A stretch of 64,000 nt of DNA from Bacillus sp. FSL K6-3431 (lineage in GTDB: Bacteria; Bacillota; Bacilli; Bacillales; Bacillaceae_C), in NCBI RefSeq assembly GCF_038002605.1, contig NZ_JBBOCT010000001.1, positions 2,604,001 to 2,668,000 on the forward strand. Reading direction: 5' to 3'. Under the pieces are notes generated by a model. It did no database searches. It had not been told where the DNA came from and saw only the letters and a program-made list of their open reading frames with translations. This document shows positions 10,103-17,042 of this stretch, piece after piece (the first letter of the stretch is position 1; every line of letters starts with the position of its first letter). The position numbers and the translations under genes were made by a program.

Positions 10103-10686
10103 ATGGCTAGACCGAAACGAACATGGCATTCTGCTGGCTATTACCACATCACTATTCGCGGAAACAACCGCCAAAACATCTTTCATGGAACACCGATATT
10201 AATGAATATTATCGTATCCTCATGTATGCATATGGAAAATATCGTTTTGAAATTTATGCGTTTTGTATCATGAACAACCATAACCATCTTCTGCTCCGCT
10301 CCTATGAAGTCCCCCTTGGAAAACTCATGGCGATCATCAACAAAAGATACAGTGATTACTTCCGAAAAAAGTACAACTATACCGGACAAATCTATGAAAA
10401 CAGATACTACTCCAAAGAAATTAGCTCCCCTACAGGACTATTAAACATTAGCGCCTATATTCACCGCAATCCGCTCGAAACAAAAATACCAATCGTACAA
10501 GCCATGGAGCATTACCTTTATAGTTCATATAAATACTATTACCACAACTTGCAATCCCACCATCCATTTCTCAACCTTCGTCTACTCCCTGACCTAATGC
10601 CAGTTGAAAAACAGAAAAGACTTAAAGCCTACACCCAATATTGCGTTCAATACAAATCAAAGAAAAACACAACTACGGAACAGTAA
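10103..10686 (+). pseudogene. REP-associated tyrosine transposase (RAYT), frameshifted
   Basis: Member of the IS200/IS605-like Y1 transposase group that mobilises REP palindromes through single-strand cleavage. From ATG 10103 the frame reads MARPKRTWHSAGYYH then ITIRGNNRQNIFH, the usual RAYT N-terminus. Around 10185-10200 the frame changes, and the rest (DINEYYRIL... MNNHNHLLLRS... YIHRNPLE) continues to 10686 in another frame. HNH in MNNHNHLL is the HUH metal-binding motif. One frameshift separates the halves, so the gene is probably inactive, unless this is a sequencing error or a programmed shift. REP palindromes lie on both sides. Confidence 0.85.
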
Positions 10687-11748: not shown

Positions 11749-11792
11749 AATTTGTGGCAATTTTAAAAATAATAGAAGAAGGGGTGGTATTG

Positions 11793-13142
11793 ATGAAGCG
11801 AAGAATATGGAGTCTTCTCTTTATAATCGGAGTAATGGCATTAATCATTGGATGTAGTAGTGAAACAAAAGGAAATAATGCTGAAGAATCCCCTAAAAGT
11901 GGTGTAGCTGAAAAAAATCCTAAGACTGATGAACCTGAAGAAGCAACTGTCGCTTTGATGATTCACTGGGGGGAGAAAGATTTTGAGAAGACCTTCAATC
12001 AACATGTAAAAAAAGCTCTACCACACATAACACTAACTTATATTCAAGCTAGTGGAAAAGAGGAAATCGAAGAAAACTTTGCCAAAGGATTCGTACCTGA
12101 TATTGTCATGGGAAGTGATTTTCGAATGTTTAAAGAACTTGATTTACTTCGAGATCAGATGCCGCTAGTAGAAAAACACGGTCTTGATCTCGGTCTATAC
12201 GATCCGGGTATTATAGAATCTTTAAAAAACGCTTCCCTTGAAGGAGAGTTGAACGCCCTACCTGTTTTTCGACCTGGTTATATAATGGCTTATAATAAAG
12301 ATATTTTTGATGCTTTCGGTGTCCCATACCCGACAGATAATATGACTTGGGATGAAGTCATTGAACTAGGTAGACAATTATCTGGTGAAAGAGATGGTCA
12401 AAAATACCACGGTCTCTGGCCTGGTAGAGATCAGCTGGCACAAGTAAGTGCCACCATAATAGACCCAGAAACAAATGAGCCGAATATTCTAGATAATAAA
12501 GAATTGCGTATCTTTCTAGAACGTCAACAAACAATCTTTAATATCCCAGAGAACCTTCCAGAGATGGATTCAATGGAAGATTTAGCAGATTTTATGTATA
12601 ACGGAAATAATGCTGATCCGATATTTGATTATGCACTTTTCCCTGGACGTGATCAAACCAACGGCTTTACATATCGTGAAGCAGAAGCTGGTTTGAACTT
12701 TGATTGGGTTACATACCCTACTTGGGGTGGAGATTATCCTGATTATCTCCCTAATGAGCTATATAACAATTTGTTTGTAACAAGTCAAAGTGAAAATCCA
12801 GATGCTGCCTTCGAAGTTCTTGCATATCTAATGTCAGAGGAATATCAAAAATGGTCGGTGACAACAGGTGGATCAACTGCTTTGCTTAATAAAGAAATAT
12901 ATGATGAATTTGGAAAAGAACTAGACCACGCAGAAGTTTTGGATGATAAAAATACGCAAGCACTATTTCAATTACAAGGCGCTCCAATACCAAAGAAATC
13001 ACATTATGAAGGACCTCTTTATAAAACTTTGGTGATCAATGCTTATCAACGACTCCTTGAAGGTGAAGATATTAACACAGTCATTAGAGTGATGGATGAG
13101 GAAGCACGGAATATGATTAAGGATCTAGCAGGAAAAGAATAA
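11793..13142 (+). CDS. sugar ABC transporter solute-binding lipoprotein
   Basis: A family 1 extracellular solute-binding protein, 449 residues, held in the outer membrane leaflet by a lipid anchor: signal sequence with lipobox LIIGC near residue 21. The two-lobed fold is suggested by GYIMAYNKDIFDAFG, MTWDEVIELGRQL and the C-terminal LLEGEDINTVI region. ATG 11793 follows AAGGGGTGG; the longer in-frame start at 11754 lacks a ribosome site. No permease gene is nearby, so membrane partners must be elsewhere or lost. A damaged second copy follows directly. A perfect cre lies upstream. Confidence 0.9.
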   Translation: MKRRIWSLLFIIGVMALIIGCSSETKGNNAEESPKSGVAEKNPKTDEPEEATVALMIHWGEKDFEKTFNQHVKKALPHITLTYIQASGKEEIEENFAKGFVPDIVMGSDFRMFKELDLLRDQMPLVEKHGLDLGLYDPGIIESLKNASLEGELNALPVFRPGYIMAYNKDIFDAFGVPYPTDNMTWDEVIELGRQLSGERDGQKYHGLWPGRDQLAQVSATIIDPETNEPNILDNKELRIFLERQQTIFNIPENLPEMDSMEDLADFMYNGNNADPIFDYALFPGRDQTNGFTYREAEAGLNFDWVTYPTWGGDYPDYLPNELYNNLFVTSQSENPDAAFEVLAYLMSEEYQKWSVTTGGSTALLNKEIYDEFGKELDHAEVLDDKNTQALFQLQGAPIPKKSHYEGPLYKTLVINAYQRLLEGEDINTVIRVMDEEARNMIKDLAGKE

Positions 13143-13156
13143 TAATCAATTTGTTT

Positions 13157-13630
13157 TAAGAACGTCAACAAGAAATATTTAATATTCCCGGAAATTTACC
13201 AAAGATGGATTCAGTCGTGGAATTAGAGGAATTTATGTATAACGGGACAGGGAATGCAGACGAAATATTTGATTATGCTCTTGTACCAGGGCATGCCTTT
13301 ACAAAAGGGTATTTACAGCGCGAACAAGATGCTGCTGGTTTGAATTTTGTTTGGGTCACCTACCCAACTTGGGGCGGGAATTATCCGGAAGAAGAACCGA
13401 AAGGACTTTACCATAACATTTTCGTCACAAGCCAAAGTGAAAATCCAGATACCGCCTTTGGAGTAAATGAGTATTTGTTATCAGATGAATATCAAACATG
13501 GTGGACAAGTACAGAATATAGGGTAAGCCCATTAGTGAATATGCGTAACAATCAGAACCCCAGGAGGTCCTAGAAGACAAAAATTGGCGCGCCTTTCTCG
13601 AAATACCAGGGGCCCCTATTCACGATACTC
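13157..13630 (+). pseudogene. remnant of a second solute-binding protein (C-terminal half)
   Basis: From about 13157 the sequence repeats the intact upstream gene from its codon 257 or so: ERQQEIFNIPGNLPKMDS..., EEFMYNGTGNADEIFDYAL, NFVWVTYPTWGGNYP and FVTSQSENPDTAF all have near-identical counterparts in the intact copy. There is no N-terminal half. Frameshifts appear after 13560 (EVLEDKNWRAFLE... in another frame). It is therefore a diverged paralogue truncated at both ends, not a simple tandem duplication. Confidence 0.85.
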
Positions 13631-15533: not shown

Positions 15534-15798
15534 TTTTGAAACAGAATAATTCATGAAATGCGCAGGCTTCTGTTGTTCATAGGAATTCTAAAAGCTAAAA
15601 ACCTATGGTAAATAGTCTTAAAAGATTGAATACAATTTCGCGACTCTGTTGTTAGCAGCTATATTTCTTCACCTGCAGCAGCTGAACATCATCTTAGTTG
15701 CTCTTTTAGCTGTTGAAACCCGAGACTCATGAAAAGGTACTAATTTATTGAGCATTGTAGATCAGGCAATAAATGCCCACAATGGTTAAATTAAACTA

Positions 15799-15827
15799 TT
15801 GATAAATCGATGAAAAAGCTTTATGAT
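15799..15827 (+). promoter_or_regulatory. sigma-A promoter of the candidate small RNA
   Basis: TTGATA (15799-15804), a 17-base spacer, then TATGAT (15822-15827). Transcription should start near 15834. No start codon with a ribosome site follows. The stretch 15534-15798 holds nothing that I can support. Confidence 0.7.
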
Positions 15828-15833
15828 GGTTAT

Positions 15834-16063
15834 AGAAGCTGCGATGTCCGTATGGCATTAAGTTTTAACTCTAACCTTATAATAGGGAGTTTTAATTGAA
15901 ACGATAATGTCAGGCCTTCTTCGAAAGGAAGACAGGATAGTTTCTGCGAACACCCACTTGGAGAAGTGGTGGTTTAAAACTTTTTATAACGAGTACGGCA
16001 TATGTGGCTCTTAACACTAAATTAACCAAGACCAGTCTTTTATTATTAGACTGGTCTTTTTAT
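15834..16063 (+). ncRNA. candidate structured small RNA, family not recognised
   Basis: A self-contained unit of about 230 bases: promoter, structure, terminator, no reading frame. A closing stem joins the 5' end to 15994-16012 (ATG-CCGTA with TACGG-CAT, extended by AGA-GC with GC-TCT) and is prolonged by AGTTTTAA (15861-15868) with TTAAAACT (15974-15981). Three hairpins lie inside: ACTC/CCT with AGG/GAGT around a TATAAT loop (15867-15890); GAAAC-AT-TGTC with GACA-AT-GTTTC (15898-15944); CCACTT with AAGTGG and a GGAG loop (15954-15969). AGTTTTAA occurs a second time at 15888-15895 and could compete for the same partner, suggesting two folds. It does not match any 6S, SRP, RNase P or tmRNA pattern I know. 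Confidence 0.6.
16028..16061 (+). terminator. strong terminator of the candidate small RNA
   Basis: AAGACCAGTC pairs with GACTGGTCTT around TTTTATTATTA, followed by TTTTT. Confidence 0.92.
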
Positions 16064-16400
16064 TATGTAAGAAATAAACTGAATCAGATTTCTGGAGTAG
16101 GAATTGTATGGATGCCGAGCACAGATACCTTCTTATTCAGACAGCGAAATATGATTATCAACACTAAAACATAAGCTTTTTAATCTGTTCCCAAGGAACT
16201 TTTGTAACCAAATGTGCCGTGTTTCTAATCCTCAATTCCACACCAAGTTCCTTTTGATCCTAGATATTGCTTGGTAAAAAAACAAAAAATCCAAATCGAA
16301 GCTTTTTTAGGTTAGCTCTAAGCCCTTTTCATTGGTTTCCCGATTCTTCTTGAACTTCCGGGATTACTATATCCCCTATTTCCTTTTCATCTTCAGCTAT

Positions 16401-17033
16401 TTAGGGTTCTTTAGGTTCTTCCAGATCAGGTGCAGGTTGTATAGGAATTGCTGGACTCTTTGATGTATCCTCGAGTTCTTTCGAATCAGTAACAGATTTT
16501 TCAATATCATCGGGTTGTTTTGGTGTATTCGACTCCTGCGGAGGCTCTATAGGTTTGTTAGCTTTATCAGGATTATCGGGGTTATTAGCTTCATTATTAC
16601 TTTCGTCTGATTTATCTTTTGGTTTATAATCTGTTTTATCTTTTTCATTATTCTTTGATACTTGTCCCCTCTTCTTAACAGGGCTGTAAGTGGAGTGATT
16701 ATTAAATCGCGATACCGAATTATCACTGTAAACTTCAGTTGTTACTGATTGGTCCGTAAATGGATCAGTTACGGACTCCTCTATATCTTCACTTATTTCC
16801 TCTTCCTTACTGTCCTTAGCTTCCTCTTCATCATCGTCGTTTATTTCAGGGATTTGTTTATTTGATAATAGTGCTACAGATAAGGTTTTTCCTTTATGAT
16901 TTTCTACCTTCCAACTAGTAGTACCTACTTTATCCAGTAAATGTTTTTCCCAATAAATATAACCACCTATGATAAAAGCACTAACTAAAACAATTGTGAG
17001 TAAAATTGCTACATTCCCTTTTTTCTCATGCAA
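16401..17033 (-). CDS. membrane-anchored acidic, Pro/Lys-rich protein of unknown function
   Basis: A 210-residue protein with one N-terminal membrane helix (KGNVAILLTIVLVSAFIIG, about residues 5-24) and a short folded part around KVGTTSWKVENHKGKTLSVALL. The rest is low complexity: runs of Asp/Glu (about 60-80), then Ser/Asp/Lys/Asn/Pro repeats to the end. I start it at TTG 17033, eight bases after GGAGG; a GTG at 17042 overlaps the ribosome site. The helix has a faint likeness to TadE/TadG-type pseudopilin anchors, but I do not assign a family. The outside tail probably spans the cell wall. Confidence 0.6.
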   Translation of the reverse strand: MHEKKGNVAILLTIVLVSAFIIGGYIYWEKHLLDKVGTTSWKVENHKGKTLSVALLSNKQIPEINDDDEEEAKDSKEEEISEDIEESVTDPFTDQSVTTEVYSDNSVSRFNNHSTYSPVKKRGQVSKNNEKDKTDYKPKDKSDESNNEANNPDNPDKANKPIEPPQESNTPKQPDDIEKSVTDSKELEDTSKSPAIPIQPAPDLEEPKEP

Positions 17034-17042
17034 TAATTTCAC

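Follow-up and report, generated by a model that had tools for sequence, protein, structure and literature searches.

We identified at 15833-16014 of a 64,000-nucleotide stretch of DNA (hereafter the window) what is almost certainly a working 6S RNA gene of the 6S-2 type, for which polymerase binding and pRNA synthesis are inferred from the family. 6S RNA is a well-known small RNA that mimics an open promoter and restrains the main RNA polymerase of bacteria; the housekeeping holoenzyme is bound and then released through synthesis of a pRNA. An Rfam scan of the whole window gave a single match, to RF00013 (6S/SsrS RNA), at 76.6 bits against a cut-off of 46.4. The match spans the complete model (positions 1-187 of 187; E 2.4e-13 for the 64 kb search), and was also the sole one at E values up to 1 in the region 15700-16150. 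An earlier note on this DNA had described an unrecognised RNA that does not fit the common housekeeping RNAs, and had itself named a significant Rfam match to a known family as evidence to the contrary. Because such a match was obtained, the word "unrecognised" fails; the element is a 6S RNA and thus a common housekeeping RNA after all. As an annotation this is routine: the RNA is a real, conserved and largely ordinary representative of its family, grouping with 6S-2 copies and sharing with them a conserved structure, promoter and terminator. The features of the locus are collected in Table 1.

Table 1. Features of the 6S RNA locus, in window coordinates.
Feature	Position	Strand	Basis
Sigma-A type promoter: TTGATA (15799-15804), 17-base spacer, TATGAT (15822-15827)	15799..15827	+	10/12 consensus matches; conserved in 6S-2 copies
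6S RNA (SsrS), 6S-2 / bsrB type	15833..16014	+	RF00013, 76.6 bits; 6S-2 clade membership
Closing stem P1, 5′ strand (3′ strand 15995-16008)	15838..15851	+	Rfam alignment, pair counts, RNAalifold
Predicted pRNA template; pRNA AGAGUUAAAACUU, start opposite U15872	15860..15872	+	Position relative to B. subtilis 6S-1; conserved A
Helix P2, 5′ strand AAGUUUUAA, includes first AGTTTTAA (15861)	15860..15868	+	35-copy alignment, pair counts, RNAalifold
Central bubble, 5′ part; small hairpin with TATAAT loop in single-sequence fold	15869..15884	+	Folds, RNAalifold
Predicted alternative (collapse-type) helix, 5′ strand; 14 contiguous pairs with 15974-15987	15882..15895	+	Duplex energy
Apical arm base GGGAGUUUU...GAAAC, includes second AGTTTTAA (15888-15895)	15885..15902	+	Alignment, pair counts, RNAalifold
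3′ central-bubble hairpin ACUU/AAGU	15956..15967	+	RNAalifold columns 144-147/154-157
Helix P2, 3′ strand UUAAAACUU, partner common to both AGTTTTAA copies	15974..15982	+	Alignment, pair counts, duplex energy
Intrinsic terminator: 11-pair stem (16028-16038/16048-16058), 9-base loop, T tail	16028..16061	+	-15.8 kcal/mol; single-sequence fold; 32/35 copies

A second 6S gene is present in this genome. It scores higher against RF00013 (108.4 bits) than the window copy, which is the more divergent of the two, and sits between aspS and a YrvM/TcdA-like gene (product names read from translations). These neighbours also flank the 6S-1 copies of 5/5 genomes examined, and in Bacillus subtilis the 6S-1 gene bsrA is flanked by aspS and yrvM (PMC11077062; this and the other papers are cited from partial texts). 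A search of 60 relatives with RF00013 returned 99 matches, with at least one 6S RNA in 59 of the 60 genomes. For a first tree and for energy tests we used 80 copies, comprising 61 of the 99 matches (all copies from the window's genus but that of G005, every lower-scoring copy elsewhere and the top copies of six genomes) and 19 of 21 further matches, the two left out being the same loci as G001. The remaining 38 RF00013 matches and the 6S-2 copy of G005 bring the set to 119. In the 119-copy tree, whose support values are rough because the bootstrap had not settled, the window copy belongs to a 36-member clade (99/99); the second copy of its own genome is in one of 66 (100/100), which is the 6S-1 clade. 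The 80-copy tree agrees, with clades of 35 (100/98) for the window copy and 28 (100/97) for the second. Nearest to the window copy are those of G008, G015 and G011, three species of the same genus, the best being 93% identical. We would call the window copy 6S-2 type, a label given by exclusion from the 6S-1 clade and by neighbourhood, since B. subtilis bsrB is not in the tree under its own name. It resembles the 6S-2 RNA (bsrB) of B. subtilis and its orthologs in being a second paralog outside the aspS-yrvM neighbourhood, in its 6S rod, and in having its own promoter and terminator. A further 17 copies are weakly placed in the 80-copy tree and lie on the 6S-2 side, outside the clade of 36, in the larger one; these (e.g. 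L119, L122 and L126) are 6S RNAs of Evansella, Salipaludibacillus and others, and possibly represent further paralog lineages. One record titled Bacillus subtilis strain DE0224 (L032, G060) has the same 6S coordinates as G001, which belongs to the window's genus, and its title may be a misidentification.

Within the window's genus, RF00013 finds a 6S RNA in 16/16 genomes, the best copy of each lying in the 6S-1 clade. A model built from 35 6S-2 copies detects 6S-2 in 10 of these 16 genomes and none in the other six; nine of the ten positive genomes had contributed to the model and the tenth, G005, had not. The G005 copy (C221, 79507-79700; L176) scores 165.4 bits with this model, is unreported by RF00013 and lies inside the 6S-2 clade. 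Weak scores are also given to the 6S-1 copies of G001 (60.1 bits) and G017 (51.9 bits). The six genomes without 6S-2 form one group within the 6S-1 portion of the tree (99/94), which suggests a single loss. One genome, G010, holds one 6S-1 and two diverged 6S-2 copies (L097 and L098). Plasmid records contained only two partial 6S matches, in Niallia and Cytobacillus.

The structure of the RNA is that of a 6S rod, and it covaries. For the counts, we transferred the base pairs assigned by Rfam to the window RNA to an alignment of 35 6S-2 copies, with that of G005 left out. In the canonical rod 82.0% of cells are paired, and sliding the partner by 1-3 columns lowers this to 39.7-51.2%. Double-sided changes occur in 20/49 pairs (74 cells), with 0/500 shuffles as high; further pair types are not clearly above shuffles, 60/500 of which match the count. 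On this point the earlier note, which had looked to covariation in relatives as a check, is upheld. Moreover, RNAalifold recovers the rod when no structure is supplied, with its closing stem, P2, an apical arm (GGG-A-GUUU/GAAC-A-CCC, GAAAC/GUUUC and an apical CCUU/AAGG) and the 3′-bubble hairpin. In the window the base of the arm pairs GGG 15885-15887 with CCC 15953-15955, GUUU 15889-15892 with GAAC 15948-15951, and GAAAC 15898-15902 with GUUUC 15940-15944. Closing stem, central bubble, apical arm and covariation, the marks of a rod by which membership in RF00013 was judged, are all found. The earlier note had also drawn attention to TATAAT in a hairpin loop. The motif is present at 15878-15883 but is not conserved, the three nearest relatives reading TAGAAT, TATTAT and TAGTAT there; as the sister copies differ at this site, we rejected it as a functional -10 mimic.

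Signals for initiation and termination flank the RNA, and both are conserved in the 6S-2 type to which the window copy belongs. By itself the promoter does not exceed chance expectation, 15 such sites being found in 4 kb with 14.9 expected. Across the 35 6S-2 copies (again leaving out G005's, here and for the terminator), a promoter with at least 9/12 matches lies just upstream of 17, compared with 5/182 control stretches. Hexamers at -34/-11 from the RNA start also occur in the sister copies G008, G015 and G011, that of G008 scoring 8 and hence falling under the 9-match threshold. A terminator hairpin of -8 kcal/mol or lower is found just downstream of 32/35 6S-2 copies versus 1/59 controls, with none detected for G015; the window stem is followed by T-rich DNA. 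The 4-kb site scan omits the window terminator, presumably because its loop has 9 bases and the scan allows 8. No ORF of at least 40 aa with an ATG, GTG or TTG start lies wholly inside the RNA, and one begins at 16004, within its 3′ end. The fold of 15840-16063, at -61.4 kcal/mol, is more stable than those of shuffled sequences, which average -45.5 (z -3.58; 0/200 as low). The earlier note was right to describe a structured small RNA that folds into a closing stem and internal hairpins, contains no reading frame and comes with a promoter and terminator of its own; the promoter, both repeats, their partner and the terminator all lie where it had put them.

Left to fold freely, the window RNA departs from the 6S-2 type, in that P2 has a predicted competitor, a local 5′ hairpin. 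Its minimum-energy fold is not the rod (-51.3 kcal/mol, versus -47.4 with P2 enforced). Instead, a long 5′ hairpin at 15852-15912 (GGCAUUA with UAAUGUC plus inner pairs) is predicted to hide the P2 5′ strand, and in such a model it would be the first to form during transcription. The hairpin is also seen in the predicted free folds of the three sister copies, for which enforcing P2 costs 6.4 (G008), 1.0 (G015) and 0.2 (G011) kcal/mol. The same four copies read AACTCTAAC where 23/35 clade members read AACCTTT, and therefore the pRNA predicted by position begins AGAGUU, not AAAGGUU. Their RNA is also shorter, at 182-184 nt compared with 189-199 in the other 31 clade members, mainly in the apical hairpin.

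A free fold that is not the rod might be taken as a sign of a pseudogene, that is, a decaying, non-functional extra 6S copy, and so might the weak P2 duplex (-6.8 kcal/mol), an Rfam score under that of the 6S-1 copy, and the 6/16 genus genomes in which the 6S-2 model has no match. However, promoter, terminator and compensated stems are maintained across the clade, and four species retain the same variant though the neighbouring genes mostly differ; we consider decay very improbable. The chance of a structured RNA of a new class, or of a riboswitch-like element switching between two folds, is negligible: two pairings are indeed possible, but the full-length RF00013 match and the conserved 6S rod rule out both; in addition, the RNA has its own terminator and the next long downstream ORF lies on the opposite strand.

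As a working 6S-2 type gene, the locus would stand beside the 6S-1 (bsrA) gene located elsewhere on the chromosome and be transcribed from its own sigma-A promoter to the intrinsic terminator. By analogy with the family, the rod and central bubble of the RNA would imitate an open promoter, bind the housekeeping holoenzyme and lower transcription from sigma-A promoters. With nucleotides in good supply, the polymerase would copy a short pRNA from 15872 towards 15860; pRNA synthesis would open P2 and free its 3′ strand, upon which the RNA would refold and the polymerase be let go. The putative template was placed by position from the pRNA of B. subtilis 6S-1 (GUUCGGUCAAAACUA; PMC12005410) and by the conserved A just upstream of pRNA starts. 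The first AGTTTTAA belongs to the P2 5′ strand and presumably serves as pRNA template, with TTAAAACT (15974) as its 3′ partner. The predicted window pRNA is without the GG reported at positions 4/5 or 5/6 in other pRNAs.

In 6S-1 of B. subtilis the 3′ strand of P2, once released, pairs with the distal 5′ bubble to form a central bubble collapse helix (CBCH), for which 5′ central-bubble bases 44/45 and 50-53 are named (PMC8876501); this helix has been supported by probing. The window RNA is similar in two respects: its putative template and the P2 5′ strand overlap, and the P2 3′ strand, when freed, is predicted to pair anew with sequence upstream; it differs in the predicted partner, which is mainly the arm base here and the 5′ central bubble in 6S-1. 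Our hypothesis for the 6S-2 clade is that, once freed, this strand can form new pairs with the second AGTTTTAA, at the base of the apical arm. In the window RNA the duplex energy of this alternative helix is -11.2 kcal/mol, versus -6.8 for P2. Among the 119 copies, for which counts are not independent because the copies are related, the alternative duplex equals or exceeds P2 in strength in 33/36 6S-2, 7/66 6S-1 and 4/17 other copies, and beats shuffles at 0.05 in 25/36, 8/66 and 1/17, respectively. When the template was kept unpaired in silico, at least 5 alternative-helix pairs were expected in 28/36 6S-2, 0/66 6S-1 and 1/17 other copies. The first 80 copies give a similar division between 6S-2 and the rest, with 30/35 versus 7/45 for duplex strength, 25/35 versus 6/45 for shuffles, and 27/35 versus 1/45 for the helix with the template blocked.

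Under the same block, at least 4 expected pairs fall on the arm base in 27/36 6S-2 and 0/66 6S-1 copies, and on the bubble part in 10/36 and 7/66. Because bubble-part pairing appears in just 7/66 6S-1 copies, this prediction is a poor detector of the published CBCH. The extension to 119 copies left the odds of re-pairing unchanged, since its stronger contrast is offset by this poor sensitivity. For the window RNA with its template blocked, the energy is -44.0 kcal/mol with the alternative helix enforced versus -44.2 for the best fold, a marginal difference; enforcing it is 2.5 (G008), 1.8 (G015) and 1.9 (G011) kcal/mol worse in the sisters. The expected number of alternative-helix pairs is 6.2 in the window, 0.5 in G008, 1.5 in G015 and 5.1 in G011. 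The helix is conserved, and 2/14 of its pairs vary on both sides; as 288/500 shuffles have as many, we rejected covariation as proof of it. This weak covariation arises because the helix hardly varies, and, as the partner of GAAC in the arm, GUUU has another reason to be conserved. In one distant copy (L168), all three strands have changed in concert so that neither pairing is lost; this is a single event. The two exclusive pairings proposed in the earlier note are both feasible and agree with the published refolding of 6S RNA upon pRNA synthesis, but the alternative helix is without clear covariation.

It is plausible, though unproven, that the alternative helix is a 6S-2-specific relative of the collapse helix. 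Our fuller proposal is tentative, and we think it more likely to fail than to hold: 6S-2 RNAs of Bacillus relatives would bear a near-copy of their own template strand (AGUUUUA) at the arm base, and once pRNA occupies the template the freed P2 strand would shift there, the resulting helix of 11-14 pairs taking the arm base apart and acting as a release switch unlike that of 6S-1; in the four-member subclade of the window, the local 5′ hairpin would further tune polymerase binding. The partial texts of PMC8876501, PMC11077062, PMC7726162, PMC12005410 and PMC8414754 contain no description of a 6S-2 arm-base helix, and an earlier description elsewhere is possible. Such a strand-exchange helix, predicted in 6S-2 copies and in 0/66 6S-1 copies, could make polymerase release differ between the two, and suggests a possible reason for the retention of two 6S RNAs in many Bacillus relatives. 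The overlap of the two pairings is testable and a worthwhile experimental lead. Deletion of 6S-2 reportedly has a biofilm phenotype. In B. subtilis, sigma-A polymerase associates with 6S-1 and, more weakly, with 6S-2, which is most highly expressed in mid-exponential phase (PMC11077062). The function of 6S-2 has been termed unclear (PMC7726162) and its bubble less structured than that of 6S-1 (PMC8876501).

Lastly, the genes adjacent to the 6S-2 copies examined mostly differ from copy to copy, and the neighbourhood therefore says little on function. The window and G015 copies share a nearby LytR-like gene, an IS200-like transposase and an unnamed small protein, while G001, G003, G006 and G012 are among the few other 6S-2 copies that share neighbours with each other. 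The IS200-like Y1 transposase domain protein is encoded upstream of the RNA at 10123-10686 and has its G015 homolog near 6S-2 (L095, 3927-4484). The small protein, at 16401-17042, is without a Pfam match, and its G015 homolog also lies near 6S-2 (L095, 1182-1847). The short ORF at 13205-13573, which follows a solute-binding protein gene at 11754-13142, is homologous to part of that gene and probably represents a truncated duplicate.
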